Positions 3,053-37,411 of a DNA stretch of 37,411 bases are shown here, piece by piece (positions within the stretch are counted from its first letter, which is position 1; the number at the start of each line of letters is the position of its first letter). The position numbers were made by a program, and so were the translations under genes. The notes under the pieces are model-generated. The model saw nothing but the letters and a program-made list of their open reading frames with translations, had not been told where the DNA came from and searched no databases. Origin of the DNA: a virus; the IMG/VR virus record IMGVR_UViG_3300022752_000189, positions 1 through 37,411 of that record; one strand, 5' to 3'.

Positions 3053-3069
3053 ATAAATCCTTATATTAT

Positions 3070-3098: not shown

Positions 3099-3105
3099 CT
3101 AAATA
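3098..3105 (+). promoter_or_regulatory. possible T4-type late promoter before the first baseplate gene
   Basis: ACTAAATA matches the T4 late consensus TATAAATA at 6 of 8 positions, keeping the TAAATA core (3100-3105). The core starts 27 nt before the ATG at 3127, the same distance as the perfect octamer before gp6. It abuts the -35 element of the opposing gp55 promoter. A weaker alternative, TATAAATC at 3052-3059, lies further upstream. Confidence 0.4.
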
Positions 3106-3126
3106 TTACAGTTGAGGAGTTCAAAA

Positions 3127-6599: not shown

Positions 6600-9500
6600 A
6601 TGGCAGTAGAAAATAGATCGGCAGCAAATTCCAGTCCAGTTGACGCAGGCCCTTTTTTGGCCAAAGTTGTTAGTGTAGCTGATCAGACCTATATGGGAAA
6701 TCTAGAAGTTCAATTATTACATGAAGTAGGAAATGATGAAGCTACAGAAGGACAGTTGCGTACAGTAAAATATCTAAGTCCGTTTTATGGAGTTAGTAAT
6801 GTAGAATATGTCACTGAAACTAGTGATGATTATAATTCTACACAAAAGGCCTACGGCATGTGGATGATACCTCCTGATATAGGAACCTTAGTAATTTGTA
6901 TTTTTATTGGCGGAGACGTAAGAAAAGGTTATTGGTTAGGCTGTGTACAAGATGAAAATATGAATTTTGCTCTGCCAGGATATGCTTCTAGTCAGTATGT
7001 GGTAGATAGCACTAGATTAACAGATAAAGAAAAAACAAGAGTCCCTGTTGCTGAATATAATAAAAAAATTAATTCAAGCAGTGAAGATCCTAGTAAAATT
7101 CTTAAACCTGAACATCCGATGGCTTTTGTGTTAGAAAGACAGGGGTTGTTAAAAGATGACACAAGGGGAATAACTTCCAGCAGCAGTCGTCGCGAAGTTC
7201 CTAGCATGGTTTTTGGAATATCGACGCCAGGACCTATTGATAGGGTAGGACCTACAGGCAAATTTGGAAAAAAAGAACATCAAGTTACTAAAGGATTTGT
7301 AAGTAGATTAGGTGGCAGTAGTTTCGTTATGGATGATGGCGATGATAAGTTTTTAAGAAAAACTTTGCCATCAGAAGGTCCTCCGGAATATTATAATTTA
7401 GAAAACGGTGAAGGACCTGGAGTAGCTGATATACCACATAACGAATTAGTCAGATTAAGGACTAGGACTGGTCATCAGATATTACTGCATAATAGTGAAG
7501 ATCTAATTTATATTGGTAACAGTAGAGGTACAGCATGGATTGAGTTAACCAGTGACGGAAAAATTGATATATTTGCTAACGACAGTATTAACATAAGAAC
7601 TAAACAGGATTTTAATTTTTATTGTGATAGAGATTTTAATTTAGAAGTAGGAAGAAATTGTAATATTAAAGTACAAGGAGAAATGCATACTGAAACTATA
7701 TTAGATCATGTGCTTATTGTTAATAAAGATCAAAAGATATTGGTAAAAAATAGGAAAGATGAAACTATTATAGAAGAGTACAGAGAAACTGTAATGGGTG
7801 ATGTAAAAGTATTTTATAATCAAAATTTTATACACAATATAGATAAAAGATTTGATCTTAGGGTAGCTACAGCAGCCAGTGTTACAGTAGGAAAAGGATC
7901 AAGCGGGCCAGGATTCGCTCCGAGACCAGAAACTGCTCAAACTCCTTATGGTCCTATCAGTAATGACACAGAAATTTCATCTCCTGTCAGAGAAGTAAAT
8001 GGTGATGAAGTTGATAGAGTTGATATTAAAATCTATAAAGATACAAGAATTGAAGTGAATGGTAAGAATTTAGATCAGACAATAGGGGGTAATGTAAGGA
8101 CAAAGATTATAGGTACAGTTGATATTAGCACTGATAACACATGGCGTCATACTTCTTCAAAAGATATTGATATCAATTCAGGTGGGCATATTTTTAACAC
8201 CAGTGCGGGAACAAATGAAACTAAAGCAGGAGGAAACATTATTGAAACTGCTCCACAGATTCACATGAACGGTCCAAGTGCAGGAACAGCTCCTGTTGCC
8301 TTAATAGCTGTCAAACCTGTTGAGGCAAGAATTACAGCAAAAGCTACAGTGCCTTTATCATTAGTGACTCATGAATTACCTGATTTATCTGGACAAGATA
8401 AATGGAAGTCATTGACTAAATTAACAACAATTTTAACACGCATACCAACTTATGAACCATATCCACATCACGAAAATTTAGATCCTTTTTTCTACAAATT
8501 TGACAACTTAGATAGAGATAGAGATGCAAGATATCGAACTTCTTCTTTCAATGTTCCTAGAAATTATATTTTAGGTCCAGGGTTTGCGTTTAGGAAATAT
8601 TCTACTGAAACTGATACTTTTGAAAAACTTTCAGCAGCAGAAGATAATGAAAAAATTAATGATCCTGCTACAGGAAGTCCTCCTAAAGCTAATAATCTAG
8701 CCAACAAGCGTGCAAGTGACATAGCTAAAAGACAAGAAACTGTAACTGGTAAAATTTCATCTGCTGCTACAACAAGGCGAGTTATTAATACTGCGGGGAC
8801 AGCTACTATATTAGGTATAGTAAGTGCTGTAGTAGGCACGACAGGTGGCACGACAGGTGGCACGACAGGTGGCACGACAGGTGGCACGACAGGTGGCACG
8901 ACAGGTGGCACAACAGGTGGCACAACAGGTGGCACAACAGGTGGCACGACAGGTGGTGATACTACGGCTAAAGGAATACCCTTTAAAAGAGCAGATGGAA
9001 CAACTATATATTTTCCTACAAATTGGGATAGTTATAATGATCAAGCTCGAGTCGACTGGTTTAACACCAATAAGATAACAGAAGCAGATTTTTTAGGTAT
9101 CGGATTAACTGTTGATGTTATAAATTATTGGAAATCAAAAGGTTGGAAATCTGGAGGAGTAGGCACAACAGGTGGCACAACAGGTGGCACAACAGGTGGC
9201 ACAACAGGTGGCACAACAGGTGGCACAACAGGTGGCACAACAGGTGGCACAACAGGTGGCACAACAGGTGGCACAACAGGTGGCACAACAGGTGGCACAA
9301 CAGGTGGCACAAGAGGAACAGTTGTACCAACTATAAACGCAACTTATAAAAACCCAATAGAAGTCAATGAAAGGTTCGAAATAGATTTTAAGCTTAGTCA
9401 AGATTTAAAGCTCCAACTTCGTCAAGTAAGTGGACCAGGAACAACAAATAAAATCTATGATTGGGGATTAAAGACAACACAGTTTGTTGGCATTGATTTT

Positions 9501-10517
9501 CGTTTTGAAAACACAGGAACATATGTATATGTAGTTGAAGCTGTAGATTATCCTGGGGTACAAAAATTTTTAAATTTTACAGTTGTTCCAGTAGGAGCAT
9601 TATCTTTGCCAAGTAATATGAATTTTAGAATAGCATTTGATCCATCACAAATTTATCCTTATGATTCTATTACAGTTAATATAGCACGAAATGACGGGTT
9701 AACTTTTGATACTAACAAAATATTTTTACGCATGAATCAGACAGAATTTAACGGAGTAATGAGACCAGCATATGATGATATAGATCATGGTAAAACTAAA
9801 AATGCGGCTGCGTATGATGGTGCTGGTCCTGGTCCGGGCAATACGGAAGGTGCTTTATCATTTCGTTTAGATGGTACAGGCATTGTTACAAGTTTTCAAT
9901 GTACGATTGGATTTACAGATTTAACTTGGTTAATAAATAGCGATCAATCAAATTTTAACATGACTAGATTTCAAGTGCAGGCCATTACTGATGGTAAGAA
10001 ATCCGTAGAAACTAATTTTCTGACTGTGAGAAAAAGACCTGTAACAACAGTTACTAATCCAGGACCAACTAATAATACAACTGTTGTATTAGATACTAAT
10101 GTAACAGAAGCCGAATATAATAGATTGGTCAAGATTATAAAGGAACAATTTCTTTATTACACAGGGAGAACTACATTTACAGATAGTGATTTAGCCTTTT
10201 GGGTTAACTTTATTAATAGCACTCCTGGGGAAGCATTGTTATCTGAGTACAAAAGATATCTTTTGAATTTTGTCTATAAGTATGATACATTGTCCCTAGA
10301 GGACCGATTATACGCTCGTGCATATCTAACTCATTGGATAGATAAAGGTCTTACCGAATTTACAGCTACATTAGATTTGAGGAGTTCATTACCAAGGATT
10401 TTTGCTAGTCAGGCAGTTAACGGTCAATTCCCTGAACCATTTAACGAAAAAGTATTGCTGGCGTTCCCTGATTTAAGAAATGTTAATTCAGCTTCTAGTA
10501 CTGACATCCAAGGATAG
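6600..10517 (+). CDS. 5: gp5-type baseplate central spike, no lysozyme domain, repeat-rich C-terminus
   Basis: A 1305-residue protein with GGAG (6589-6592) before the ATG. Residues about 14-145 form the gp5/VgrG OB-fold (YGMWMIPPDIGTLVICIF, GDVRKGYWLGCVQDEN, LPGYAS). Residues about 235-560 are the spike beta-helix (GGSSFVMDDGDD, RTRTGHQILLHNSEDLIYIG, GTAWIELTSDGKIDIFANDS, then short valine/isoleucine repeats). No T4-like lysozyme domain lies between them. Beyond the helix are a linker, ten GTTG units (746-785), a small domain with ARVDWFNTNKITEADFLGIG (786-854), twelve GTTG units (855-902), Ig-like beta regions (about 905-1150) and a helical C-terminal domain (about 1170-1250) resembling DUF4214. 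T4 gp5 is 575 residues. The N-terminal half is secure; roles of the C-terminal modules are unknown. Confidence 0.9.
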   Translation: MAVENRSAANSSPVDAGPFLAKVVSVADQTYMGNLEVQLLHEVGNDEATEGQLRTVKYLSPFYGVSNVEYVTETSDDYNSTQKAYGMWMIPPDIGTLVICIFIGGDVRKGYWLGCVQDENMNFALPGYASSQYVVDSTRLTDKEKTRVPVAEYNKKINSSSEDPSKILKPEHPMAFVLERQGLLKDDTRGITSSSSRREVPSMVFGISTPGPIDRVGPTGKFGKKEHQVTKGFVSRLGGSSFVMDDGDDKFLRKTLPSEGPPEYYNLENGEGPGVADIPHNELVRLRTRTGHQILLHNSEDLIYIGNSRGTAWIELTSDGKIDIFANDSINIRTKQDFNFYCDRDFNLEVGRNCNIKVQGEMHTETILDHVLIVNKDQKILVKNRKDETIIEEYRETVMGDVKVFYNQNFIHNIDKRFDLRVATAASVTVGKGSSGPGFAPRPETAQTPYGPISNDTEISSPVREVNGDEVDRVDIKIYKDTRIEVNGKNLDQTIGGNVRTKIIGTVDISTDNTWRHTSSKDIDINSGGHIFNTSAGTNETKAGGNIIETAPQIHMNGPSAGTAPVALIAVKPVEARITAKATVPLSLVTHELPDLSGQDKWKSLTKLTTILTRIPTYEPYPHHENLDPFFYKFDNLDRDRDARYRTSSFNVPRNYILGPGFAFRKYSTETDTFEKLSAAEDNEKINDPATGSPPKANNLANKRASDIAKRQETVTGKISSAATTRRVINTAGTATILGIVSAVVGTTGGTTGGTTGGTTGGTTGGTTGGTTGGTTGGTTGGTTGGDTTAKGIPFKRADGTTIYFPTNWDSYNDQARVDWFNTNKITEADFLGIGLTVDVINYWKSKGWKSGGVGTTGGTTGGTTGGTTGGTTGGTTGGTTGGTTGGTTGGTTGGTTGGTTGGTRGTVVPTINATYKNPIEVNERFEIDFKLSQDLKLQLRQVSGPGTTNKIYDWGLKTTQFVGIDFRFENTGTYVYVVEAVDYPGVQKFLNFTVVPVGALSLPSNMNFRIAFDPSQIYPYDSITVNIARNDGLTFDTNKIFLRMNQTEFNGVMRPAYDDIDHGKTKNAAAYDGAGPGPGNTEGALSFRLDGTGIVTSFQCTIGFTDLTWLINSDQSNFNMTRFQVQAITDGKKSVETNFLTVRKRPVTTVTNPGPTNNTTVVLDTNVTEAEYNRLVKIIKEQFLYYTGRTTFTDSDLAFWVNFINSTPGEALLSEYKRYLLNFVYKYDTLSLEDRLYARAYLTHWIDKGLTEFTATLDLRSSLPRIFASQAVNGQFPEPFNEKVLLAFPDLRNVNSASSTDIQG
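8835..8954 (+). repeat. 12-bp tandem repeat array 1 (10 units) inside the spike gene
   Basis: Ten direct, gapless copies of GGCACRACAGGT encode Gly-Thr-Thr-Gly. Units 1-6 and 10 read GGCACGACAGGT; units 7-9 read GGCACAACAGGT. The 12-bp period keeps the reading frame whatever the copy number, so the array can lengthen or shorten without breaking the gene. Confidence 0.97.
9162..9305 (+). repeat. 12-bp tandem repeat array 2 (12 units) inside the spike gene
   Basis: Twelve identical copies of GGCACAACAGGT are followed by one degenerate unit (GGCACAAGAGGA, 9306-9317). It encodes the same Gly-Thr-Thr-Gly linker as array 1, from which it is separated by a 69-codon unique segment. Perfect identity at the DNA level points to recent expansion or homogenisation. 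Confidence 0.97.
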
Positions 10518-10550: not shown

Positions 10551-10991
10551 ATGACATCAAGCGCAAGACTTTATGATAAAACAGTTTTACAATCTAATAA
10601 TAAAACCTTTGTTCCTGGTAGTAAAACATATAAGGGCTTTAGCACAGTATCTAATACAGGATCAACTTTTGGTCTTTATGATATAAGTCTTATTAAACAG
10701 GATTTATTAAATCATTTTAACATTAGATTCGGTGAAAGATTGGAGCAACCGGAGTTTGGAACTATAATTTGGGACTTACTTTGGGAACCGTTGACCAATG
10801 AACTAAAAGCTCTAATAGCAGAAAATGTAAAAACTATAATAAATTATGATCCTAGAATTAGTACAGATCAAATCATAGTGAGTACCTATGAAAGTGGTAT
10901 ACAGATAGAGTGTATTTTGACTTTTTTTCCTTATAATATTCAAGAAGCTCTACAACTTAGGTTCGATCAAGCTAACGGACTATTAGCTTAA
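10551..10991 (+). CDS. 25: gp25-like baseplate wedge protein
   Basis: A 146-residue protein with GGAG (10540-10543) upstream of ATG. The second half carries the GPW/gp25 pattern: DLLNHFNIRFGERLEQPEFG, then WDLLWEPLTNELKALI and ENVKTIINYDPRI, ending in a beta-hairpin-like segment. In T4 and other contractile systems gp25 sits in the inner baseplate and bridges the wedge (gp6) to the first sheath ring. The EP pair in WEPLT lies where the family's conserved EPR core is expected, with Arg replaced by Leu in this reading. T4 gp25 is 132 residues. Placement between gp5 and gp6 supports the call. Confidence 0.9.
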   Translation: MTSSARLYDKTVLQSNNKTFVPGSKTYKGFSTVSNTGSTFGLYDISLIKQDLLNHFNIRFGERLEQPEFGTIIWDLLWEPLTNELKALIAENVKTIINYDPRISTDQIIVSTYESGIQIECILTFFPYNIQEALQLRFDQANGLLA

Positions 10992-11046: not shown

Positions 11047-14000
11047 ATGTCAGCAACGGATAGACAAAATCGACTGTTAGTAGCGGAAGATTGGCGTAGA
11101 ATATATCAAAGTTTTCGCAATGCAGATTTTCAAAGCTATGACTTTGAAACCATCCGTCGTATAATGGTAAATTATATTAGAGAAAACTATCCCGAAGACT
11201 TTAATGATTACATAGAAAGTAGCGAATACCTCGCTCTAATAGATTTAATAGCATTTTTAGCACAAAGTATAGCTTTTCGTGTAGATTTAAACAGTAGAGA
11301 TAATTTTTTAGAATTAGCAGAGCGTAGAGAAAGTGTGTTACGTCTAGCTAGACTTTTAAGTTATAATCCTAAGAGAAATAATTGTGCTAGTGGTCTATTA
11401 AAATTTACCAGTGTTCAAACTACACAGAGAGTATTAGATTCTAATGGTAGAAATCTTATAAATCAAACTATTAACTGGAATGATGTCTCAAATCCTAATT
11501 GGTATGACCAGTTTATTAAAGTAATTAATGCTGCTTTGCCAGCTTCTAGACAGTTTGGTAATCCAGAAGATTCAGATACAATATATGGTATTCCTTGTGA
11601 ACAGTATAGATTTCAAGCTACTAATTTAGATGTGCCTGTGTATTCTTTTCAAAAAAGTGTGGATGGCAGAGTTTTAGGATTTGAGCTGGTCAGCACTGTT
11701 TTCAAGTCTAAACAGGAAATTTATGAAGAACCACCTGCTGTTGGTAATAGACTTAGTTTTATATATAGAAATGATGGTAGAGGTAGTGGTTCAGTAAACA
11801 CTGGTTTTTTTCTATTATTTAAAGAAGGAATATTAAATCAGGGAATTTTTAATCTTACTCAGCCAGGTAATAACGAAACAGTAGACATAGATAATCCTAA
11901 TATTAATAATACAGACATTTGGTTGTATAGATTAGACCAAGCAGGACTTGAATCAGAATATTGGGCACAAGTATCAAGTTTAGAAGGCAATAATATTATC
12001 TATAATAGCTTACAAAAATCTATTAGAAATTTTTATAGCGTGATTACTAAAGCAGGTGATAGAGTTACTTTACAATTTAGTGATGGAACATTTGGAAATT
12101 TACCTTTAGGTAAGTTTAGAGTCTATTATAGAACCAGTATAGGAAATACATATTCTATCAATCCTAGAGATATACGTAATGTATCCATAGAAATTCCATA
12201 TCTAAGCAATCTTAATCAAGCTGAAGTGCTTACAATAACTCTGAGTTTACAAACCGCTGTGGCTAATAGTACACCTACTGAAACCAATGAAAGTATTAAG
12301 GCCAATGCTCCTGCTACCTATTATACACAAAATAGAATGATAACCGGAGAAGATTATAATATTAGTCCATTGGGTGTTAACCCACAGGTTTTGAAAGTAA
12401 AATCTGTTAATAGATCTAGCAGTGGTATTAGTCGTTATTTTGATCTAGTCGATCCTACAGGCAAATATAGTAAAACTAATCTTTTTGCTGACGATGGTGT
12501 ATTATATAAAGAAGAATTTACAGATAGTTTTAAATTTAAATATGATACTCGTACTGATATAGAGTCGACTATATTAAATGATGTCTACAATTTTTTAAGC
12601 AAAGTATCATTACGTGACTATTATTATAGCAAATATACAAGTATAGTTACAACAAGTCTAAGTGCTGCTTGGTATTCTACAACTACAGACACAAATCAGT
12701 CTACAGGATATATTGGTGATACAACAGATTTTACTCCATATCAATTAGGGGTTTATTCATCTACTCTATTGAGATTTGTTACAGACGGATCAATATTAAA
12801 ATTCATAGCTCCAACTGGTAAGTACTTTGATAAGACAAATAATAATAAACTAGTCACTAGTACTAGCCCTAGACTGGGTTATGCTGACAGTTTATATACT
12901 AAAGTAATTAAGGTAACAGGTAATGGTACTTCGACATTGATAGATGGAACTGGATCTGTGCTATTAAACGACATAATTCCAGAGTCTGCTATTTTAGCTG
13001 AAATAATTCCCGCTTTTAAAACTACATTAGATTCGAATACTTTAACTACAATGGTAGATTTAATTTTTTCAAATAAACAATTTGGTCTAAGATATGATGT
13101 AGAAGATCGAAACTGGAAAATTATTTTTGAGATTAATCTTAATAATGTAAATTCTTTTAGTCTAGGTAAAACTGGTGATAATAGCGGACAACAATTAGAT
13201 TCTAGTTGGATAATCTTGTTTACTACAGATACAGAATATTATACAGTAAAATTTAGATTATTAAGGTATATTTTTGAAAGTGATAAGCAGGTTAGATTCT
13301 TTTTTGATAGCAGCGATAAAATTTATGATACTAGAACTAATACTGTGGAAAAAGATAAAATTAAGGTACTTAGTTACAATACTCAGCCAGACAATCTTTA
13401 TGCTTTTACATTTGACAGAGAATGGGAAATTACTGAAGAATTTAAAGGTATAGATGGTTATATTGACACTAAAAAGATACAAGTTACTTTTAGCGACACT
13501 GATGATGACGGTGTAGTCGATAATCCAAAGATTTTTGATGATTTAGTAGCTCCATCAGTTAACACTGTAGATAAGATAGTAGTTTTAGAATTATATACTG
13601 TGGAAGAAGGTCAAGAGGATTATAGATATATCAGTAATTCTAATGGTTCAGTGTTAATATATAATAATGAAAATGAAATTAATAATTTAAATGTTTTTAA
13701 CGACGGACAATATTTTTATTTTGTAGATTCAGATGTTGTTAAGAAATACTACGCTCAAACAAGCAAGTTAGAAGTAACCTTAGACTATAAGTGTTATATA
13801 GGGAGAGATCAATTAAAGTTTCAATATATTCATAATGCAGATTATGAATCAAGAATTGATCCAGGAATTTCTAATATCATGGATGTCTATGTGTTAACTT
13901 CAACCTACGACAAGTATTTTAGAGAATATATCAATGGATCAAGAGATCAAATGCCATTACCTCCTAGCAGTGATTTTTTGTATAATTTATTATCTTCTGA

Positions 14001-14487
14001 TCTAAACAAAATAAAAAGTATTAGCGATGAAATTATCTATCATAGTGCCAAATATAAAATTCTTTTTGGATCTAAATCTACTATAGATGTACAGGCCAGT
14101 TTTAAGGTAGTTAAAAATCCAGAAATTGTAATCAGTGATAATGATATTAAAAGTAAGATAATCAGTGCTATAAATGAATTTTTTAACATAGACAATTGGG
14201 AGTTTGGAGATAATTTTTATTTTACAGAATTATCTACTTATGTTATGAATCGCCTAGCTCCTAACATCGTTAATTTTATCGTGGTGCCAAAAAAAGCAGA
14301 TTTATATTTTGGAAGTCTATTTGAAATTAGAGCCGAAAAGGATCAAATTTTTATTAACGGAGCAACTATAGATGATATTGAAATAATAAGTGCGCTCACC
14401 GCCAGTAAGATAAAGGCATCTGGCGACATAGCCAGTCCAAACTCAGTCATTAGCAAACAATTAATAGCTAGCTCAGGATCTAATTAA
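11047..14487 (+). CDS. 6: gp6-like baseplate wedge protein, enlarged
   Basis: A 1146-residue protein. The N-terminus has the gp6 signature: FETIRRIMVNYIRENYPEDF, SEYLALIDLIAFLAQSIAFR, DLNSRDNFLELAERRESVL and RLLSYNPKRN. Central gp6-type segments include FSDGTFGNLPLGKFRVYYR and NRMITGEDYNISPLG. The C-terminal part (about 1020-1130) has the wedge dimerisation-like region, NPEIVISDNDIKSKII through FTELSTYVMNRLAPNIVNF. T4 gp6 is 660 residues; the extra length lies mostly in the middle (about 500-1000), in beta-rich sequence without a recognisable domain. gp6 forms the inner ring that ties the wedges together. The stop overlaps the next start (TAATG at 14485-14489), implying coupled translation. 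Confidence 0.93.
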   Translation: MSATDRQNRLLVAEDWRRIYQSFRNADFQSYDFETIRRIMVNYIRENYPEDFNDYIESSEYLALIDLIAFLAQSIAFRVDLNSRDNFLELAERRESVLRLARLLSYNPKRNNCASGLLKFTSVQTTQRVLDSNGRNLINQTINWNDVSNPNWYDQFIKVINAALPASRQFGNPEDSDTIYGIPCEQYRFQATNLDVPVYSFQKSVDGRVLGFELVSTVFKSKQEIYEEPPAVGNRLSFIYRNDGRGSGSVNTGFFLLFKEGILNQGIFNLTQPGNNETVDIDNPNINNTDIWLYRLDQAGLESEYWAQVSSLEGNNIIYNSLQKSIRNFYSVITKAGDRVTLQFSDGTFGNLPLGKFRVYYRTSIGNTYSINPRDIRNVSIEIPYLSNLNQAEVLTITLSLQTAVANSTPTETNESIKANAPATYYTQNRMITGEDYNISPLGVNPQVLKVKSVNRSSSGISRYFDLVDPTGKYSKTNLFADDGVLYKEEFTDSFKFKYDTRTDIESTILNDVYNFLSKVSLRDYYYSKYTSIVTTSLSAAWYSTTTDTNQSTGYIGDTTDFTPYQLGVYSSTLLRFVTDGSILKFIAPTGKYFDKTNNNKLVTSTSPRLGYADSLYTKVIKVTGNGTSTLIDGTGSVLLNDIIPESAILAEIIPAFKTTLDSNTLTTMVDLIFSNKQFGLRYDVEDRNWKIIFEINLNNVNSFSLGKTGDNSGQQLDSSWIILFTTDTEYYTVKFRLLRYIFESDKQVRFFFDSSDKIYDTRTNTVEKDKIKVLSYNTQPDNLYAFTFDREWEITEEFKGIDGYIDTKKIQVTFSDTDDDGVVDNPKIFDDLVAPSVNTVDKIVVLELYTVEEGQEDYRYISNSNGSVLIYNNENEINNLNVFNDGQYFYFVDSDVVKKYYAQTSKLEVTLDYKCYIGRDQLKFQYIHNADYESRIDPGISNIMDVYVLTSTYDKYFREYINGSRDQMPLPPSSDFLYNLLSSDLNKIKSISDEIIYHSAKYKILFGSKSTIDVQASFKVVKNPEIVISDNDIKSKIISAINEFFNIDNWEFGDNFYFTELSTYVMNRLAPNIVNFIVVPKKADLYFGSLFEIRAEKDQIFINGATIDDIEIISALTASKIKASGDIASPNSVISKQLIASSGSN

Positions 14488-17400: not shown

Positions 17401-20400
17401 ATGATAGGTTTTTAGGTAGTTTTCCAGGATATAACAATTTACGAGATCTTGGCAATGTTTCTAATCTAGGATTGAGATTTATACAACATAGCAGTCCTTT
17501 AAATTTCAGTCTTTATCATTTTGGATCGCAATATAATAACTTGTTCAAGGCTATTGAAAAGGCTAGGAATGATTATATACAGTTTAAAAATTCTTTTATT
17601 ACACTTGCTGGAAATATAGGAATTGATACTGAAGTAAAACAGCTTACTGATCTTGTGTTAGCAGAATTACTGAAAGACAAGTCAAAGACTCAGCCTTATT
17701 ATCTAAGTGACATGTTTGCCTATGCTGCATATAACCGTTTAGAGTATGTAGTGTTAGATTCAAGAGTAAGAATTTATCCTTTAACTAATTTGTTTAATCT
17801 AGATCAATTGTCCAATCGAGCAGTATCGATTTATCTAAATGGACAGCAATTATTACATGGAAAAGACTATACTTTTAGTACAGATTTATACTTTACTTTG
17901 TCGGACACTTTGATCATAGCTGATGACGACATTTTAGAAATCTATGAATATGAAAGCACAGACGGAAGTTTTTGTCCCCCTACTCCTACCAAATTAGGAA
18001 TTTATCCATTATTCGAACCTAAGATATACACAGACAATACCTATAAAGATCCTGTCTTAGTAATTCAAGGACACGATGGTAGTATAACTGTGGCCTTTAA
18101 TGATTACAGAGATGATTTAATTTTAGAATTAGAAAAGAGAATTTTCAATAATATAAAAGTAAATTATAATAAGGATATATTTAATATTCATGATTTTATT
18201 CCTTCATATGATAGAAAGCAAACTTATAATATAACGGAATTTAATAAAGTTTTATCTCAATTTTTCTTTCAATGGACAGTGAATATTAATGAAGATTATA
18301 CTAAGGCTATTGAAGGGTTGTATGATGCTGGTAATAGTTTTACCTATAATTACCGAAATAATTTTTACCCAGATGGTACACCAAATCCTGCCTATTGGAG
18401 AGGAATATATCAATATTCTTTAGATACTGATCGTCCTCATACACATCCATGGGAGTGCTTGGGATTTACTATCGAACCACGTTGGTGGAGAGATATCTAC
18501 GGAGAAGCTCCTTATACCAGTGATAATTTTATATTATGGGATGATATTAGACAGGGTATAATTAGAGAGCCAGGTAAAGTAGTTAAGTATCTACCTCAAT
18601 ATGCTAAATCTATTTTAACAAATAGATCAATAGTTGATAATCAAGGTAATTTACTTAGTCCATCATCAAGCAACCAAGCATTAGGTAATCTAGAAAGTAA
18701 CGATACAGGGTATTACCAGTTTGGAGATCATGGTCCTGTAGAAACAGCATGGCGCAGATCTAGTTCTTATGCTTTTGCTCTTATTCAAACGATATTATTA
18801 TTAAGTCCTAGTAGAATATTAGGAACTTGTTTTGATAGAAGCAGGATAATAAGAAATTTAGATAATCAACTAGTTTATAAAAACACAAATCTAAGAATTA
18901 GGCTACAAGATATCGAGCTTCCTTCTACTAGTTTAAGTTCAAAGCGTGTTCAAGCTGCGGGATTGGTAAATTATATAATTGATTATATTACCAGTGATAC
19001 TACAAATTTTTATGATCAATACCAACTTGATTTATCCTTATTAACTAATAAAATTAGTAGTAAATTAGGAGGATTTACTAGCAAATCCAAATTTAAAATT
19101 TTACTAGATAGTAAAAATCCTGTCAGTACAAGTGGAATATTTGTACCTGAAGAAAATTACAATTTATATCTTAATACAAGCAGTCCTTTACGACAATTAG
19201 TCTACAGTGGTGTTGTTATTACCAAATATCCTGATGGATTTGAAATTAGAGGTTATAATAGAGATGCTCCGTATTTTAATTATTACATATCTAATTTTAC
19301 AGGAAAATTTGTTACAATAGGAGGTATTAGTGAAAATTTTGTAACATGGGCAGATTCGCAATTATATTCTGTAGGATCAATTGTGAAATATAATAATGCT
19401 TATTACAGAACAACTATAGCTCATACTTCGACCTTTGATTTTAATGAATTATATTTTGTTGGATTGGCTAAATTGCCAGTAATTGGTGGTGTTACAATAG
19501 AACTAAAAACTCGATTTGTTAAATCAGAACTTCTTCAATTAACTTATGGTACAAGATTGCCTGATACTCAGACAGTTGTAGATTTTCTTTTAGGATATGC
19601 AGAATATCTTAAAGATGAAGGTTTCATATTTGAAGAATTTAACCCGAACTTAAAGTCCATCGACAATTGGGAAAGCAGTGCTAAAGAGTTTGTTTTTTGG
19701 ACTACTCAAAATTGGTCACCCGGATCAGCAATAAGTCTTAGCCCATGCGCTAAATTACTTAGTTTTAAGAAAAATCAAACTGTTATAGAAAATATAACAG
19801 ATAACTTTTATGGATATAAAATATTTAGAGTAGACGGGGAAAAGCTAGATCGTAATTTTACAAATACATTTAGGGAAGATAACGAATTTGGTCTAGAAGT
19901 AAATGGCACAAATCATGGTATATATGGTGCTATTTTTCATCTTGTTCAAAAAGAACATATTTTATTGCTAGATAATAAAACTTTGTTTAATGACGTAATA
20001 TATGATTTAGAACCAGGTTATAGGCAGGAAAAAGTAAAAATTGTAGGCTACATATCCACAAATTGGAACGGTGGTTTCCAGATTCCAGGTTTTATTTTTG
20101 ATACAGCAGATATACAAGAATGGTCTCCTTGGGTAGATTATAGACTAGGTGATGTAGTTTTTAACAAAGAATTTTATTATACTGCGTCAAAAACAATTTT
20201 AGGATCAGAAAAATTTAATAGTGATGACTGGGTGTTACTAAGTGAAAAACCAGTCAGCCGTTTGTTACCTAATTGGGATTACAGAGCAGAACAATTTACA
20301 GATTTTTATGATTTAGACAGTGATAATTTTGACACAGAACAGCAAAAGTTAGCACAACATTTGATTGGTTATCAAAAACGTCAGTATCTAGAGAATATTA

Positions 20401-23400
20401 TACAAGACGAAGTTAGTCAATATAAATTTTATCAGGGTATGATAATTGAAAAAGGCACTGAAAATGTATTGAGTAAATTATTTGATGTACTTAGTTCCGA
20501 TAATCAAGAAAGCTTGTCCTTCAATGAAGAATGGGCTGTAAGAGTAGGTACTTATGGTGGCACCAGTTTATACGAAGAAGTAGAATTTAAATTAGATGAA
20601 TCAGAATTTAAATTAGTTCCACAACCTTTTGAAATTGTAGAGACAATAGATCAAACAGAGTATAATGCGGTTATAAAACAAAGATTAGCAGATGTTTATA
20701 TTAAACCTTCAGTGGCTAGTGAAGATTTATTTCCTATATCAAATGTAAATAATTTTCTTCGTACACCAGGGTATGTTAGATTCGATGAAGTTAAGTATGT
20801 TGTAGACACATTAGATGCTGTGCTTGGGTTGAATATAAATGATTTTCAAGTAGGTGATTATGTTTGGTGTGCTTTTCAAAATCGAGATTGGAACATATAT
20901 AGACTTACACCTGTTTCATTTAATATCATAGATGTTGAATACGATGAAGTAGTTCAGGTATTCTATCTACAATGTGATAGAATACCTACAATAGCTAATA
21001 ATATAATAGGAATAGCTAATACTACACAAATTGATGGTTTTTACAGCATAATAGCGATAAACAATAATAAAATTTTAATTAATTCAGGCACTACTGATTT
21101 TGTCGATTTCAATGATAGTTCTTCTATTCTTGTCTATCAGTTAACGTCAGTTAGAACTAATCACGTAGATGATGCTAATGATGTTATACCAACACTGTTA
21201 AAAACTAATGAGTTACTCTATGCTGATAACGACGGATATTCAAGAAAGACAGTTTATCAGCATAGTAAAGTTTATAGTCAAAGAACATTTAACAAATATG
21301 ATTTGCCTATAGCTCAAAGTAATTTTGGTAAAAGTATTACATTATCTAAAAATGGACTAACATGTGCTGTAGCTGATAGATATCAAGTCACAATTTTTAC
21401 ACGGTCATCTACAGGTTCTGCTTGGATTCAGCAGGATGTTATAGCTAATCCAATAACTTCAACTTTTTTAAGTGCAGGTATTGCTGCCGGTGATACTTTT
21501 ATACCTGCAGACAACACAGTATTTTTTCCTAATTCTGGACTGTTGATCATCGATGATGAGCAAATAATCTATACATCTAAAACAAATTTTGGATTCCAAG
21601 GAATTATAAGAGGAATAAATGGAACTACACCATCTAGTCATTCCTATAAAAGTAAAATTTTCGAATATTATTCTTATCTAAGCGGATTTGGAAATCAAAT
21701 GGAATTCAGCCCTGATAGTGAATGGTTGGCAATCAGTGCTCCTAATGCTAGTAATTTACAGACGGGATTTAAAGGTTTATATGATGGAGGATCAGGAGCT
21801 AATCCTTATGTAGAGGGAGATATTGTAAAATTAGTACATAAGGTAGGAACAAAACACATATATCTTAATACACACTGGAAAGCAAAGAGAAATATAATAT
21901 TTGGAGGTGATTGGAGTACGATCGACAATTTCAGTCAGGATTGGGAACCAGCCGATCTTATTGAAATAGATAGCTCAAAGCCAGCAAATAATTATTCCAA
22001 TCAAGGATATGTAAATCTTTATCAACGCAGCAATCAAGCAGGTAGTTATATTTTAAGGCATAGCTTCGTAAGCCCTAACCCTTGTCCACCCGGACTCTCC
22101 TTGTTAGAAGCTGGTAATAGACCAGAATATCAAGAGCAATTTGGATCAAAATTATCCATGGCACAGAATGGTGACGAATACGTATTAGCGGTATCTAGTG
22201 CAGGATACAATAATAATCAGGGACGAGTTTATCTTTTTAGATACGGAGTGACAAGAGACGACAGTACTGTGGCTTGGAGGATGGATTATACTAAAGATTA
22301 TAAAGGTAATTTTAATTCTAGTCTTCAATATACAGTAGGGGATCTAGTTGTCTATCAAGATGAGCTTTATGAATGTGTATCTGAACCAGAATTTCAAGGG
22401 CCTGTCCCTAGTTTGTCTAGTGCCTGGTCTATTACTTCAAGATCAAACATTCTAGGTTATTTTCCGCAAGAGGCAGTGGATGTCACTTTAGATAATCATC
22501 TAGTTGTTCCTCCATTAAACGATGAAAATATTGAAATGGTTATTTCAGGTGACCTATTTGGATTTGATGTAGACCTTAATTTAGACGGTACTAAAATGAT
22601 TATCAGTGCTCCTGCTGCCGATCAGGTTCTTTTTGAGAATTATAAAGGACCATTTCGACCTGCTCTTAAATACAGGTTGGATGATGTAGTGTTTTTTCAA
22701 GGCGCTTACTATCAATACAATAGACCAGAAAGTATGTATCCTATCGGAGGCCTAGATTTAGATCACTGGGATTTATTAACTGATAAAAGGCTACTTAATT
22801 CAGGAAAAGTGTTTGTATATAATTTTGATTCTACTAAAGGTTATGTATTAGATCAGACATTAGTAAGTACAAATATAGATGATTCTACTCAAGATAGGTT
22901 TGGAGAATCTATTAGTATAACTGAGTCAGGTAATAGAATAGCTGTTTCTTCGACCTTATCTGACATTAAGAAAATAGATTCGGGTCGTGTTTTGGTATTT
23001 AAGGAATCAAATGATTCCTATCAATTACAACAAAAAATATACAGTAATATTCCTGAAGCTTTTGAGTTATTTGGTTCCCGCTTACATTTCATGAATAATG
23101 ATGAAACCTTGGTGATATTTTCAGCCAAAGGTGATGTTAAAAGAATTACAACATTTGACACAGACCAAATTTCACTAGATCAAAACAGAACAAGATTTAT
23201 AGATCTGCAGATTGATTCGGGAAGAGTAGATGTCTATGATAGGTTATATGAAAATTATATATTTGCTGAAAGCTTGGATACTAGTCAAGATAATGAGCAG
23301 ACAGATAGGTATGGATGCAGTCTAGCAGTGTCTAACAATAACATCTGTGTAGGAGCAATGTATGAAGATGGTAGCTCTGTAAACGCAGTATATCGAGCAG

Positions 23401-26400
23401 GCAAAGTTTATAGTTACAGTAAAGTGCCTAATACTAGATCTTGGGCTGTAAAACATAAAGAAGATCCAAGAGCTAATCCATATAAAATTAAAAAAGCTTA
23501 CTTTTATAATAATTTTGAAAATACATTAATAGCATATATAGATGTCATTGATCCGGTTCAAGGTAAAATACCAGGACCAGCGGATCAAGAAATAAGGTAT
23601 AAGACTTATTATGATCCTGCTGTGTATACGAATAGCGGGTCTGCTGCCAATCCTGTAAGAGATGTAGCTCAATTTTGGGATAAGGCATATGTAGGACAGT
23701 TATGGTGGGATCTTAGTCGTGCTAAATTTATTGAGTATCAAGTAGGAACAACAAGTTTTCAAAACACTAATTTTAATAAACTATTTCCTACTGGCAGTAT
23801 AGATATCTATGAATGGGTAGAGAGTAAGTATCTCCCCAGTGAATGGGATAATTTAGTTAATACAGATCGTGGTATTGCTGAAGGTATAAGCGGCATATCA
23901 AAAAATGGGGATAATTCTTATGTTGTCAAACAAAAATTTGATAACGTTTCAAAAACTTTTATTAGTTTTTACTATTTTTGGGTTAAAAATCCTACAGTAG
24001 TACCTAATGTAGAAGGCAGAATTTTATCTGCTCAAGATGTTAGTAATTTAATTGCTGATCCTTTAGCTGAAGGATATAGTTGTTTAGGTATTACCAGCTC
24101 AAATTCAATTTCTTTTATAAATTGTGAAAGATTTATTTCAGGTAAAAATACTAATCTTAACGTAGAATTTTGGACTTCAGACGATTATTATACAGACATT
24201 AACAGTCATAGTCAATGGAAAATTATAAGTGAACATCCTAATACAGTGATTCCAAAATATATAGAAGAAAAATGGATTGACAGCCTAATAGGAAAAGATA
24301 GTAAAGAACGTGTAGTTCCTGATTTAAGACTGCCTTATAAAAAGAAATATGGAGTAAATAATCGTCCTAGACAAAGCATGTTCATAAATCGTGTAGAAGC
24401 TTTAAAACAATTTATAGAACGTGTGAATTCTGTAATTTCAACAAGATTGATTACTGATGACTACGATTTGTCTAATCTATCTTTAGCTGAAAACATTCCT
24501 AGTGCTGTGAGCGGTGTTTATGATATTACAAAAGATATAACAGAAGAATTACAATATATCGGCACAGCACTAATACGTCAAGCTATTTTAACACCACAAA
24601 TAACAGATGGTAGAATAACAGGAGTAAACATAATAGATACAGGCTATGGTTATGTAAATGCTCCATTTATCATAGTAAAAGGAATAGGTAAAAATGCTTT
24701 AATTAAATCTAAATTAAACAATGTTGGAAGTGTCATTGGTGCGGACATTATAGATCAGGGCTATGGCTATAGAAGTGATACTAATTTTATTATAAGACCT
24801 TATGCTGCTTTAGTTTACAATGATACAAATGCTTTTAATACTTGGAGTGTTTATAACTATAATGCCAATAGCAAGACATGGGATAAAGTAAGAAGTCAAT
24901 CATTTGATGTAACTAAGTTTTGGAGTTACCAGGATTGGTATAAAGAAGGGTACAATCAGTTTACAAAAATAGATTATGTTATTGGGACTACATATAACCT
25001 AGCACGGATAAATCCATCTATTGGACAAATAGTTAAGGTAAATTCAGTAGGAACAGGCGGCTGGTTATTATTGAAAAGATACAATTCAGTAATTAGTTTA
25101 GACTATACTCAGAATTACGAAGTAATAGGTAGACAAAATGGAACTATTAAATTTAGTAATTTACTTTATGATTTTAATATTACAACCATAGGATTTGACA
25201 GTGGTTTATTTGATAGTATAGTTTATGATAATATGCCAGTAAAAGAGTTACGCATTATTATAGATACTATTAAGAACAAGCTATTTATAGATGATTTATA
25301 TGTTGAATATCTAAAATTGTTTTTATCTTCTTTAAGATACGTTTTAGATGAGCAAATATTTGTGGATTGGATAATGAAATCTAGTTTTGTAAAAGTTACC
25401 CACAAAGCTGGAGATCTAAAACAAAAAGTAACTTATCGCAATGATAGTCTAGAAAATTATGAAGATTATGTCAAAGAAGTAAAACCATATAGAACTAAAA
25501 TAAGAGAATATATAAGCAGTTATCAAAAATTAGATAAAGCTTCGTCGTCTGTGACTGATTTTGATTTACCTCCAATAATTGATTCACAGTTTAATATTCA
25601 AAACATTACTACATCAATTAGTTCAAATGGATTAATTTTATCTAATTATGAAGATGTAAATCAATATCCTTGGAAACATTGGTATGATAATCTAGGATTT
25701 TACATACAATCTATAGAAATTTTAGATCAAGGATCGGGTTATATAAATCCTCCTGTGGTCAAAATTATAGGAGGATTTGGTAAAGGCGCTCAAGCCAAGG
25801 CGTACCTCAATCAAGGAAAAATAAACAGAATTCAAGTTGTAAGTGCTGGGTCTGGATTTCTAAAAGCACCTATAATTGAATTAGATGGCGGCCTGGGAAT
25901 AAATGGTGTTCAAGCTAAAGCAGTTGCTATAATTGAAAGCCAAGGAGTGAGATCCAACAAAATAGCTATTAAATTTGATAGGATAGCTAGAGATTATTAC
26001 GTTAGTGATCTTGTTGTTACTGAAACATTTACAGGCACAGGAAGTAGACAACAGTGGGCGATTAAGTTTGCACCTTTAACCAAAATTAACACACATTCTG
26101 TGCTCATTGATAATATCGATGTATTGAAAGAAAATTACAGTCTAAGATTAGTCAAATCGCAGTCTAAGGGATTTACAAGTTATTCTGGATTGTTAGTTTT
26201 AGAAACCGCTCCAGGAATCGGGTCTGTTGTAGAAGTAATGTATACAAAAAGTTTTAATCATCTAAGTGCTACTGATAGAATTAATTTTTATTATAATCCT
26301 AATCAAGGAGAAACAGGAAAAGATCTAGCACAACTAATGACAGGTATAGATTATGGGGGTGTAAATATTACAGGAGTTGGGTTCAATATAACTGGAGGGT

Positions 26401-28921: not shown

Positions 28922-29533
28922 ATGCAAGGTAAAGATTTATCAGGAATTCATATAGAAGGACATATAAAAATTCATGATCCTGCGTCGGGAGAAATTTATA
29001 TCAATAAGCGAAACGCTATTCATTATGAAAATATGAGTATAAGTCTTGCTGAAAGTCTTGCTAATTCAGGGCAAGGTTTTGTCTACGAGCTAGTATTTGG
29101 GAATGGAGGAACCACTGTTGATCCCACCGGAATCATTACATATTTGACCCCTAACACTAATGGCACTAATGCTAGTTTATATAATGAAACATACAGTAAG
29201 GTTGTAGATGATAGATCTGTTGTAAATTTGGATCCTACAAGAAATAAAATAGAAACTAGACATGTAACAGGAACTAATTATACAGATATTTTTGTAACCT
29301 GTTTGTTAGATTATGGTGAGCCTTCAGATCAGCAAGCTTTTGATAATACTACGAATAACAGTGGTACTTATGTATTTGATGAATTAGGGCTTAGGGGTTA
29401 TAACAGTTCAGGGTCAGGGAGACTATTAACACATGTCATTTTTCATCCTGTTCAAAAAAGCTTAAACAGGTTAATACAAGTAGATTATACTGTTAGAATC
29501 CAAAGCCTTACAGGATTAAGTGAGGTTCAGTAA
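28922..29533 (+). CDS. virion structural protein of unknown role (203 aa)
   Basis: A 203-residue protein between the giant baseplate gene and the fibre genes. It opens with DLSGIHIEGHIKIHDPASGE, has a Gly/Asn/Thr-rich middle (LVFGNGGTTVDP; SLYNETYSKVVDD; GTNYTDIFVTCLLDYGEPS) and ends with LLTHVIFHPVQKSLNR and IQVDYTVRIQSL. It has no signal peptide or membrane segment and looks mostly beta. The stop overlaps the next fibre start (TAATG at 29531-29535), tying its expression to the fibres. It sits where T4 has gp8-gp11, so it may be a peripheral baseplate or fibre-connecting protein. That is inference from position; no family name can be given from sequence alone. Confidence 0.6.
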   Translation: MQGKDLSGIHIEGHIKIHDPASGEIYINKRNAIHYENMSISLAESLANSGQGFVYELVFGNGGTTVDPTGIITYLTPNTNGTNASLYNETYSKVVDDRSVVNLDPTRNKIETRHVTGTNYTDIFVTCLLDYGEPSDQQAFDNTTNNSGTYVFDELGLRGYNSSGSGRLLTHVIFHPVQKSLNRLIQVDYTVRIQSLTGLSEVQ

Positions 29534-31635
29534 TGCCATATCAAATTAATTTTACAGATGTTACAAATTATGGAAGTATTACTGTAGAGGATCAAACTGT
29601 AAATCAGGAAACTAGTTTACAGTTTGTAGGAAAAAACTATACAGGGTACGCAAAAATTTTCGGAGAGAATTTTCTTCATCTATTAGAAAATTTTGCCAAA
29701 TCTACTGCACCAAGTAACCCTGTTATCGGACAAATTTGGTATGATACTAATACTATAGCCAATCCTCCTCAGCCGCAACTTAAAGTCTATGATGGTACCA
29801 GTTGGGTGCCTGCGGGCAACGTTAAAAAGAATCTCAGTCAACCTATTGATAGTGTTATTGGTGATTTATGGGTAGATACAACTAATCAGCAATTATATTT
29901 GTGGTCAGGGTCTACATGGATTTTAGTTGGACCTCAATTCAGTGAAGGTACTCAGAGTGGTCCGTTAGTAGAACAAATCACCGATGTAAACAATATTACA
30001 AGAGTAGTTTTGAAAATTATTGTTGGCGGTGAAACAATTATAGTCGTTAGTAAGGACGCATTTGTTCCTAAAGTTACAATAGAAGGATTTGAGAGTATTA
30101 AGCAAGGTTTTAATATTTCTTCAAAAGATTTTGATCTAGACGGAGCTGTTTTAAACAAATATTGGGGTACATCTGAAAAGGCAGATGCCTTAGTTGTAGG
30201 CAGTAACACAGTTAGCGCCAGTAATTTTTTACGAGGCGATACAGCTAGCACTTCAAATTTCGGTTTAAGTATTAGAAATAATGCTGGACTTACACTTGGA
30301 TCAGATCTAAATTCTAGTTTATCTATAACAACAAATGGTAATACCCTAATAGCGAATAGGACCGAAGGTGCTGACATTGTATTTAGAGTAAATGAATCTG
30401 GTATTAATCAAGACGCATTAATTATATCAGGAACTACAATTGGTATCAATAAAAATCCTACAGAAGCGTTAGATGTAGATGGAAAAATCAAAGTCAGTGA
30501 TGCGATCATTGTGACAGCAGTTACTGATGCTACTGATTTATTAACAGGAAGCATTAAAACAGCAGGTGGTATAAGTGTAACAAAGAGTCTTGTTGTTGGA
30601 ACAAATGCTGATATTTCTGGCACGCTTAATGCTGCTAACATTGTTCCTAAATTAGATAGTGCTTATGATATTGGCACTAGTACAAAATCGTATAATAGAA
30701 TTTATGCTGACATTGTGGGTAACAATGATAATACCACTCAATTTTTAGGTACATTTGTAGGTAGTTTTTCAGGTTCTGTTTCTGGATCTGCTTCTAAACT
30801 TACTAGCCCAACATTATTCAGTATTACAGGAGACGTTAATTCTGTAGCTCCTATCAGTTTTACAGGACAACAACCTGGTGGTGTAGCTATTTTTAATACT
30901 ACAGTTAGCACTGATTTTATTTCAACTAAGACCAATGTGATTGATACTATAGGAACTGATGAAATTTTAATTAATAGAGTTGGTGTAGGTCTACGTAAGA
31001 CAGCTAGATCTAGTTTTCTTTCTGATTTGCCTTTTGTTCCGGTAGGAGCACTGTTTCCATTCGCAGGATCTACGGCACCAAATGGATATCTACTATGTGA
31101 CGGTAGTGAAGTTTTAATTGCTGACTATCCAGAATTATATGCATTGATAGGATACACTTATAAATCTACTGGACTATTAATTGGATTAGCTACATTTGCT
31201 TTACCTGATCTTAGAGGACGTTTTCCTCTAGGAGCAGATAATATGAATGCAGGTAATATTGTTCCTTTGGCGCCCACCGGAGCAGTTACAGGAACTACAA
31301 TAACTGCCAATGCTGATAGGGTAACTGATGTTTCTGCTGATAGTCTTGGTTTAGCTAATGGTATTGAAGAAAAAACTCTTACTGTTAGTAATTTACCAGA
31401 ACACTCTCATGATTTACAAGGAGATGCTGGAACTCAATTTTACGCTTTGAGAAATAGTACAACACCTGTAGTTGATACAGACATAATAAGCAGTGTGGGT
31501 CCTGATTTAACTTCTATAGCACAACTATTACCTTCTAGCGGCGGAGTTAATAGTGCTACACTAGGTACGCCAATATCTATCATGAATCCTTATCTTACAG
31601 TCAACTATATTATTTTTTCTGGCAGGTTTAGCTAA
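29533..31635 (+). CDS. tail fibre protein with C-terminal phage Collar domain (gp12-like)
   Basis: A 700-residue fibre. Residues 1-220 are the N-terminal module shared with the next two genes (VGKNYTGYAKIFGENFLHLL, then PVIGQIWYDT, LKVYDGTSW, IGDLWVDTTNQQLYLW). The middle holds fibre-shaft repeats, including GKIKVSDAIIVT, TGSIKTAGGISVTKSLVVG and SAYDIGTSTKSYNRIYAD. At about residues 502-570 is the Phage Tail Collar domain: PVGALFPFAGSTAPNGYLLC, DGSEVLIADYPELYALIG, LPDLRGRFPLGAD. A histidine-containing LPEHSHDL and C-terminal NPYLTVNYIIFSGRF follow, as in short tail fibres. T4 gp12 uses this fold with metal-binding histidines to bind the cell surface. A receptor-binding or short-fibre role is likely. 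The stop overlaps the next start. Confidence 0.85.
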   Translation: MPYQINFTDVTNYGSITVEDQTVNQETSLQFVGKNYTGYAKIFGENFLHLLENFAKSTAPSNPVIGQIWYDTNTIANPPQPQLKVYDGTSWVPAGNVKKNLSQPIDSVIGDLWVDTTNQQLYLWSGSTWILVGPQFSEGTQSGPLVEQITDVNNITRVVLKIIVGGETIIVVSKDAFVPKVTIEGFESIKQGFNISSKDFDLDGAVLNKYWGTSEKADALVVGSNTVSASNFLRGDTASTSNFGLSIRNNAGLTLGSDLNSSLSITTNGNTLIANRTEGADIVFRVNESGINQDALIISGTTIGINKNPTEALDVDGKIKVSDAIIVTAVTDATDLLTGSIKTAGGISVTKSLVVGTNADISGTLNAANIVPKLDSAYDIGTSTKSYNRIYADIVGNNDNTTQFLGTFVGSFSGSVSGSASKLTSPTLFSITGDVNSVAPISFTGQQPGGVAIFNTTVSTDFISTKTNVIDTIGTDEILINRVGVGLRKTARSSFLSDLPFVPVGALFPFAGSTAPNGYLLCDGSEVLIADYPELYALIGYTYKSTGLLIGLATFALPDLRGRFPLGADNMNAGNIVPLAPTGAVTGTTITANADRVTDVSADSLGLANGIEEKTLTVSNLPEHSHDLQGDAGTQFYALRNSTTPVVDTDIISSVGPDLTSIAQLLPSSGGVNSATLGTPISIMNPYLTVNYIIFSGRFS

Positions 31636-33491: not shown

Positions 33492-33497
33492 TGTTCA

Positions 33498-33505
33498 AAT
33501 AAATA
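33498..33505 (+). promoter_or_regulatory. likely late promoter before fibre paralogue 3
   Basis: AATAAATA, one mismatch to TATAAATA, lies in the 36-nt gap between fibre genes. The TAAATA core starts 28 nt before the ATG. The ribosome site AAGGGG (33515-33520) would lie near the transcript start. A second match, TATAAATG at 33523-33530, overlaps the ATG and cannot serve this gene. Confidence 0.45.
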
Positions 33506-33527
33506 TATAAAGTTAAGGGGTATATAA

Positions 33528-36617: not shown

Positions 36618-36968
36618 ATGGACGAACGCTTAGAAAAAGCTCTCGAGTTTGCCAATTTTATGGTAACTCTAAATAATCAAAAACGCTCTCTTAAAGAAAA
36701 ATATCGTAATGACTGTGTTTTTTATCAAAGCGGTGGAACATTTACCATTACCAAAGAGCTAATTACTTTTATAAAAACCTTAGTTGATTTGGATAATATA
36801 AATGATATAGTAGTCATTGATGATAATGAACTGCCAATTCGTATTAGTGATTTGAAACAATTTTTAGAAGATATTGTTAATCAATATTTTATAGCTTCTA
36901 ATAATTATTTCAATGACTATCAAATGCTTAAAAAGAATAGATCAGTAGAGGCATTGGTTAATGGCTAA
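36618..36968 (+). CDS. small hypothetical protein (116 aa)
   Basis: A 116-residue protein with a strong GGAGG (36609-36613) five bases... upstream spacing of 4 nt to the ATG. It is charged and probably mostly helical: the N-terminal helix is LEKALEFANFMVTLNNQKRS, and ITKELITFIKTLVDL and ISDLKQFLEDIVNQYF follow. No signal peptide, membrane segment or catalytic motif is seen. It overlaps the next gene by 8 nt in a different frame, so the two are probably translated together. Function unknown; the gap before it (36565-36617) shows no clear late promoter or terminator. Confidence 0.65.
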   Translation: MDERLEKALEFANFMVTLNNQKRSLKEKYRNDCVFYQSGGTFTITKELITFIKTLVDLDNINDIVVIDDNELPIRISDLKQFLEDIVNQYFIASNNYFNDYQMLKKNRSVEALVNG

Positions 36969-37411
36969 AGGTATATTAATGTATGCTCTAAACAATGAGC
37001 AAATTGATTATACTGAAATAGCAGTGTATGCCGCCAAGCAAGTGAAAAAACATCTAAATGTACCTATAGCCCTTGTCACAGATAGTTTCGATTGGCTGAT
37101 AAAGCAATTTCCTGATTATAGAAAATATTTTGATATACTTATAAAAGTAGTTCATCAATCTGATATAGGAAATTTTAATCCAAATTATCAATATCCTGTA
37201 GGCAGTCTAGTTTATTATGAACATTCTATTTGGAAAAAAATAGCAGAAGGTCTGGATTATATACAACCTTTACGAGGTGAAACCACCTCGGATAGCTATC
37301 AATTTAATACAGATGATTTTGAACATATCTATCAAGGAATTGATATTGACAAATGGTATCCAAATTTGCCTTATCTAGTAGGGCAACATGTATGGCATGA
37401 AAGTAATCTGT
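36961..37411 (+). CDS. partial protein with glycosyltransferase-like N-terminus and two chitin-binding-like modules
   Basis: The ATG at 36961 opens a frame that runs to the window edge (150 codons, no stop). Residues 1-65 read MAKGILMYALNNEQIDYTEI, then KHLNVPIALVTDSFDWL and FPDYRKYFDILIKVVHQSD. This alternating strand/helix pattern is like the start of a nucleotide-sugar glycosyltransferase-type fold remembered from T4-like marine phages. From about residue 72 the sequence changes to YQYPVGSLVYYEHSIWKKI, and from 132 to WYPNLPYLVGQHVWHESNL. Both resemble the 'Y..G.lVy....W' chitin-binding-like modules of the giant protein. No catalytic motif can be checked in the part seen. It overlaps the upstream gene by 8 nt. 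Function is uncertain and the 3' end is missing. Confidence 0.6.
   Translation, partial: MAKGILMYALNNEQIDYTEIAVYAAKQVKKHLNVPIALVTDSFDWLIKQFPDYRKYFDILIKVVHQSDIGNFNPNYQYPVGSLVYYEHSIWKKIAEGLDYIQPLRGETTSDSYQFNTDDFEHIYQGIDIDKWYPNLPYLVGQHVWHESNL

Follow-up and report, generated by a model that had tools for sequence, protein, structure and literature searches.

A predicted integrin-type FG-GAP propeller in a giant protein of a jumbo-phage virion family

The seven-bladed propeller

The DNA analyzed here, a virus record of 37,411 bases (IMGVR_UViG_3300022752_000189, hereafter the window), encodes a protein of 4803 amino acids (aa) that belongs to a family of jumbo-phage virion structural proteins. 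Structure prediction and profile searches confirm that this giant protein contains a seven-bladed FG-GAP propeller of the integrin alpha type, as an initial annotation had proposed, and the predicted anatomy of the propeller suggests that it may present variable contact modules on one of its faces (Table 1).

The propeller had been recognized from seven FG/YG dipeptides within residues 2280–2980 (window 21324–23424), and all seven are present, at residues 2280, 2401, 2552, 2691, 2805, 2862 and 2942. The same stretch holds three further FG/YG dipeptides (2368, 2472 and 2586, ten in all), and the dipeptide alone is therefore not diagnostic. The seven sites are nonetheless conserved: a strict FG/YG is found in 30–59 of 60 environmental relatives at these sites, versus 0–5 of 60 at the three decoys. 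I also composed a loose FG-GAP pattern, post hoc, after the blades had been seen; it matches exactly the seven sites in the 4803 residues and none elsewhere. It has no match in 12 propeller-less homologues, and 2000 shuffles of the slot sequence (the variable region holding the propeller, described below) gave a mean of 0.03 matches and a maximum of 2.

The Pfam family FG-GAP_2 (PF14312) matches the whole protein (9.6e-11, 42.1 bits, against a cut-off of 23), the slot alone (1.3e-13, 51.3 bits), and 26 of 32 slot sequences. In scans of single blades, FG-GAP_2 passes its cut-off in blades 5 and 7 and is weakly matched by blade 4 (0.0055); a weak match of blade 6 is to another propeller family, and blades 1–3 show no propeller match in Pfam. 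By the yardstick of the initial annotation, a lack of FG-GAP signal in the majority of segments would count against the propeller, and single-segment Pfam scans taken alone show such a lack. A profile built from 32 slot sequences retrieves integrin alpha-4 (4.1e-7) and alpha-6 (3.5e-6) by sequence alone. This family profile was required, as phmmer with the single sequence found no match in the PDB. The single-blade misses are outweighed, since the integrin alpha-4 match and the fold (Z 22.9) settle the identity of the propeller. The Ca2+-binding motif DxDxDG is essentially absent, with one match in the window (residue 2696) and scattered ones in relatives, and the strand 1-2 loops are 1–4 residues long.

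An AlphaFold model was generated for residues 2050–3019 from an alignment of 32 sequences (predicted local distance difference test, pLDDT, 70.9; predicted template-modeling score, pTM, 0.73). Locally, pLDDT is mostly ∼80–95 in the blades and mostly ∼30–50 in the inserts. Structure prediction had been suggested as a check of the propeller region, and in a VIA-align search all 50 entries among the matches listed are integrin alpha chains (Z 21.0–22.9), aligned over 354–385 residues with a root-mean-square deviation (RMSD) of 3.3–4.5, across model positions 212–940 (residues 2261–2989). Foldseek concurs (1.4e-10); its neighbors among viral models comprise proteins of uncultured phages, FG-GAP proteins of giant viruses and a 'hemagglutinin' of Atu_ph07. 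Because the integrin match spans all blades, the ring of the propeller probably closes.

Inserts, slot and relatives

In integrins, the 2-3 and 4-1 loops form a common ligand-binding face, which is also the site of the inserted I domain. In 60 relatives of the giant protein, loops longer than 25 residues, counted from predicted strands, make up 169 of the 780 on the 2-3/4-1 side, versus 8 of 840 for 1-2/3-4. A conserved long loop of blade 6 accounts for 56 of the 169, and the remainder are variable. The main sites are the 2-3 loop of blade 2 (inserts of up to 786 aa) and the connection between blades 3 and 4 (up to 763 aa); inside the inserts, alignments of relatives are only approximate. A CBM5/12-like core motif is found in three of the window inserts, with one further occurrence elsewhere in the protein. 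Among 37 large inserts scanned, 9 match CBM_5_12 and a few match tail-fiber or head-decoration families. By eye, residues 2321–2400 resemble residues ∼4612–4688 (window ∼28320–28550) in an E-x-I-x-Y ... RG..GT ... H pattern; the two were not paired in a self-BLAST.

Homologues of the giant protein were found in 57 phage records, all jumbo phages, at ∼23–32% identity. Comparison with 12 named jumbo-phage homologues shows that conserved sequence ends at residue ∼2050 of the window protein and restarts at ∼3000. The intervening length is ∼224 aa in the RaK2 group, 336 aa in PAC2 (PA5oct type), ∼412 aa in SCTP-2, where the sequence looks LamG-like, and ∼1520 aa in Atu_ph07 and Phosso. Since the flanking blocks, labeled A and C, are conserved while the content between them differs among relatives, the propeller occupies a variable slot.

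The search for homologues in other phages, also suggested initially, recovers the protein family widely, but the propeller in only part of it. IMG/VR contains at least 594 relatives, of which the 80 best were retrieved. On a tree of block A, the propeller is present in 71 of the 71 judgeable rows of one clade (support 100), six further rows of which have no call, their open reading frame (ORF) ending at the locus end, at or just inside the slot. The 14 rows outside this clade (PA5oct, Atu_ph07 and RaK2 types) have no propeller, and long branches make the branching order of these outgroups uncertain. Where FG-GAP matches were found in 12 longer relatives, all fell within one large open frame, that of the giant protein; two of the twelve have no match over threshold. 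Searches with the propeller itself retrieved little: tblastn of the window propeller against 50,697 phage records gave no match, and that of a related slot (L085) two weak matches only. Nothing in IMG/VR matched a peptide pattern drawn directly from the propeller, while a pattern for the flanking block A succeeded.

Among the 12 named jumbo phages, FG-GAP is found only in Atu_ph07 and Phosso, elsewhere in the genome. The Sinorhizobium phage Phosso (PV764938.1) has 55 FG-GAP_2 matches in four ORFs (3182, 3702, 429 and 398 aa; ∼48.4–56.5 kb, 60.3–68.9 kb minus, 92.4–94.0 kb plus), outside the gp6-adjacent giant protein. Atu_ph07 (NC_042013.1) has a 409-aa ORF with FG-GAP_2 matches at 243.0–243.8 kb, minus strand, perhaps the 'hemagglutinin' found by Foldseek (A0A2L0UZX4). 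Near-identical copies of a propeller-type gene (L116 and L117) also lie on 335- and 153-kb contigs of one Neomarinimicrobiota metagenome-assembled genome; these are probably binned jumbo phages. Relatives in contigs of such assemblies are in general probably phage DNA caught up in the binning, and host identity was not read from them.

Placement in the virion and gene neighborhood

The giant protein matches the PHROG 10938 profile with 1035.9 bits, and its start codon overlaps the stop of a gp6-like gene at position 14487. Together with this adjacency, the match identifies it as a member of the jumbo-phage virion structural family. Genes similar to gp53, gp5, gp25 and gp6 lie upstream on the + strand, and the position of the giant ORF after the gp6-like gene corresponds to the T4 gene 6–7 order; at this place, large T4-related water phages encode baseplate proteins of the tail. 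In phage CBB, the homologue CBB_236, which adjoins the gp6-like CBB_237, was detected in virions by 21 peptides (PMC5259590). In phAPEC6, gp245 (382 kDa), which from its size and position I infer to be a homologue, adjoins the wedge protein gp244 and was detected by 17 peptides (PMC7247149). Atu_ph07 particles have also been analyzed by mass spectrometry, although the excerpts of that report do not name the homologue. Based on gp6 adjacency and the mass-spectrometry detection of homologues, the giant protein is a virion protein of the baseplate region.

The initial annotation had placed the propeller in a baseplate wedge-position protein. Synteny and the detection of homologues in virions agree with this, but hhalign detected no profile similarity to T4 gp7, giving a probability of ≤0.3 on a scale of 100 from shallow alignments. 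A model of block A gave clear matches to CBM5/12 modules only, the best being in the phage Milano baseplate/receptor complex, with no large-scale fold match and without gp7 among the matches listed. Because of these two results, the term 'wedge-position' is positional only.

The first of the block A modules matches Pfam CBM5/12 over residues 1620–1651 (35.2 bits, cut-off 26.2), and its predicted model matches a chitin-binding domain fold (Z ∼7). The second gave no match in a Pfam scan; its fold match is to a module of the Milano complex (Z 8.1, 45 residues, RMSD 1.3).

Table 1. Coordinates of the giant protein, its domains and neighboring genes in the window.
Feature	Residues	Window position	Strand	Basis or remark
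gp5-like baseplate hub gene		6600..10517	+	PHROG 13211; Gly-Thr-Thr-Gly linkers
gp25-like baseplate wedge gene		10551..10991	+	PHROG 261
gp6-like baseplate wedge gene		11047..14487	+	PHROG 10646, 1.2e-296; directly upstream of giant ORF
Giant virion structural protein ORF	4803 aa	14487..28898	+	PHROG 10938 family; homologues in 57 jumbo phages
Conserved block A, upstream border of slot	1161-2046	17967..20624	+	
CBM5/12-like module in block A	~1614-1665	19326..19481	+	Pfam; fold match
Second CBM5/12-like module in block A	~1874-1921	20106..20249	+	Fold match only
Seven-bladed FG-GAP propeller (predicted)	2261-2989	21267..23453	+	AlphaFold, VIA-align, Foldseek, integrin alpha-4 profile
Blade 1	2280-2320	21324..21446	+	Model, alignment of relatives
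Insert between blades 1 and 2 (4-1 loop)	2321-2400	21447..21686	+	Resembles part of PHROG 2885 baseplate wedge
Blade 2, broken in 2-3 loop	2401-2529	21687..22073	+	Model, alignment of relatives
Insert in blade 2 (2-3 loop)	2420-2506	21744..22004	+	CBM5/12-like core motif
Blade 3	2552-2602	22140..22292	+	Model, alignment of relatives
Insert between blades 3 and 4 (4-1 loop)	2603-2690	22293..22556	+	CBM5/12-like
Blade 4, broken in 2-3 loop	2691-2794	22557..22868	+	Model, alignment; weak Pfam
Insert in blade 4 (2-3 loop)	2710-2772	22614..22802	+	CBM5/12-like core motif
Blade 5	2805-2852	22899..23042	+	FG-GAP_2 above cut-off
Blade 6, with conserved long 2-3 loop	2862-2930	23070..23276	+	Model, alignment of relatives
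Blade 7	2942-2992	23310..23462	+	FG-GAP_2 7.1e-7, above cut-off
Conserved block C, downstream border of slot	3003-3316	23493..24434	+	

Downstream of the giant ORF lie a 203-aa protein and then three consecutive fiber-like proteins (window 29533–35645), which have a common N-terminal region (∼110 aa, 48% between two of them) and differing C-termini. CBM5/12-like phrases (YPVGSLVYYEHSIW) were spotted by eye in the last ORF (36961–37410, truncated). Two arrays of 12-bp tandem repeats, at 8835–8956 and 9162–9316 (10 and 13 copies), encode the linkers of the gp5-like hub protein. An Rfam search of the window gave no match.

Possible role and comparison with known systems

The predicted anatomy, with a swappable slot, inserts on one face and CBM5/12-like modules, favors an adhesion or docking role. 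In the reading I prefer, which I give about an even chance of being right, the propeller acts as a scaffold, one face of which displays variable contact modules, most probably directed at the cell surface. The giant protein would belong to the virion of a T4-related jumbo phage, in its baseplate region, with the propeller seated in the slot between the two conserved blocks. The blades and the 1-2/3-4 face would be constant and would anchor the domain in the particle. The face on the other side, made of the 2-3 and 4-1 loops, would bear exchangeable modules, three of them CBM5/12-like in the window. During adsorption or after it, these modules would make contact with the cell surface, with glycans as the likeliest partner. 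Computation or published data establish the fold, its seven blades, the slot, the insertions on one face, the conservation across the clade and the occurrence of homologues in virions; I infer the outward orientation of the insert face, as well as the ligand and the timing.

Several points weigh against this proposal. The location of the giant protein within the particle is deduced from synteny, and I take the 2-3 and 4-1 loops to lie on one face from integrin topology. Ligand contact and an outward-pointing face are suppositions, and the relatives are the sample given above. The CBM5/12-like propeller inserts score below the Pfam cut-off (for residues 2603–2690, CBM_5_12 gives 4.8e-4 and 20.5 bits, against 26.2), and where modules of this kind occur in solved phage baseplates, their role may be docking instead of the binding of glycans.

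In the best of the alternatives, unlikely but to be taken seriously, the propeller is a docking hub whose variable inserts receive tail fibers or neighboring wedge proteins. The seven-bladed nozzle propeller of phage SU10 provides a model for such a hub: blade 1 carries a fiber dock loop, and inserted nozzle domains lie between blades 2 and 3 (PMC9509320). In block A, the CBM5/12-like modules find matches in baseplate and fiber complexes of phages such as Milano, 7-7-1 and KP1, and the three fiber-like genes with their common N-terminal region lie downstream of the giant gene. However, the length of the largest inserts varies among relatives, with a few residues at one extreme and almost 800 aa at the other, beyond what a fixed docking surface would call for unless the docked fibers also vary. 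It is a good deal less probable that the propeller has chiefly a structural role, adding rigid bulk that broadens or stabilizes the baseplate, with inserts tolerated in free space and having no binding role. Propellers are generally known as rigid scaffolds, the outgroup phages manage without one and the slot accepts unrelated contents, but the inserts hold recurrent CBM5/12-like and fiber-like modules rather than random loops, and insertions recur at the same two loop sites. Finally, a chance occurrence of FG/YG dipeptides in a long protein with no propeller, to which the blades 1–3 missed by single-blade Pfam scans might point, has a negligible probability and was rejected, being contradicted by the match of the predicted fold, the integrin profile match, the conservation of the seven sites relative to decoys and the rarity of the pattern in shuffles.

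If the scaffold reading is extended to the whole propeller clade, a widespread group of uncultured jumbo phages would use fixed loops on one propeller face as a cassette position in which surface-binding modules are swapped, diversifying host contact separately from the tail fibers; this broader proposal is plausible, with the balance tilted somewhat against it. If true, a core virion protein of these abundant uncultured phages, with its recognizable scaffold and fixed cassette sites, would supply part of the host contact, and candidate surface-binding modules could be identified directly in metagenomes.

Propellers are already known from phage tails. The phiKZ protein gp131 is a separate protein, from a different jumbo-phage lineage. 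According to the excerpts of the report describing it, gp131C (PDB 4GBF) is a seven-bladed propeller at the periphery of a jumbo myophage baseplate, speculated to be a receptor-binding domain (PMC4901313). It is absent among the 50 fold matches listed here, and these excerpts do not describe it as FG-GAP. The same excerpts present the phi11 receptor-binding protein, a baseplate platform propeller with a cavity able to hold a sugar (N-acetylglucosamine, GlcNAc), so that both are precedents of baseplate propellers proposed to contact hosts, and name PRD1 P2 as a further known phage propeller (PMC4901313). The phi11 protein differs in having five blades and in being the trimeric receptor-binding protein of a Staphylococcus aureus siphophage. 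The SU10/T7 nozzle resembles the propeller described here in its seven blades, the domains inserted between them and its fiber dock (PMC9509320), but is a short-tailed phage protein lining the tail channel, and is not described as FG-GAP. The PHROG 10938 proteins of RaK2, CBB, PA5oct and Atu_ph07 are of the same family and occupy the same position beside gp6, but their slot has no FG-GAP propeller. CBB does possess propeller proteins, CBB_550, CBB_552 and CBB_554, of which CBB_552 was found in particles; these are separate proteins, of the Kelch rather than the FG-GAP type.

In the open-access literature (subscription papers and preprints lie outside this scope), I found no paper joining FG-GAP, phage and baseplate, and no description of an integrin-type propeller with diversification on one face, which is weak evidence of novelty. 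The closest likeness is to the integrin alpha chains (alpha-4, alpha-5 and alpha-IIb), which have seven FG-GAP blades, a fold that matches the model over ∼375 residues, and insertions on the 2-3/4-1 side. The likeness concerns the propeller alone; a beta-subunit partner, thigh and calf domains and a membrane anchor would not be expected of a phage protein. Unlike the integrin chains, the phage propeller is without the canonical Ca2+ loops and is part of a virion protein. Its CBM5/12-like inserts are found within blades 2 and 4 and in the connections from blade 1 to 2 and from blade 3 to 4. If this reading is true, the integrin-type FG-GAP propeller extends to the phage baseplate region.

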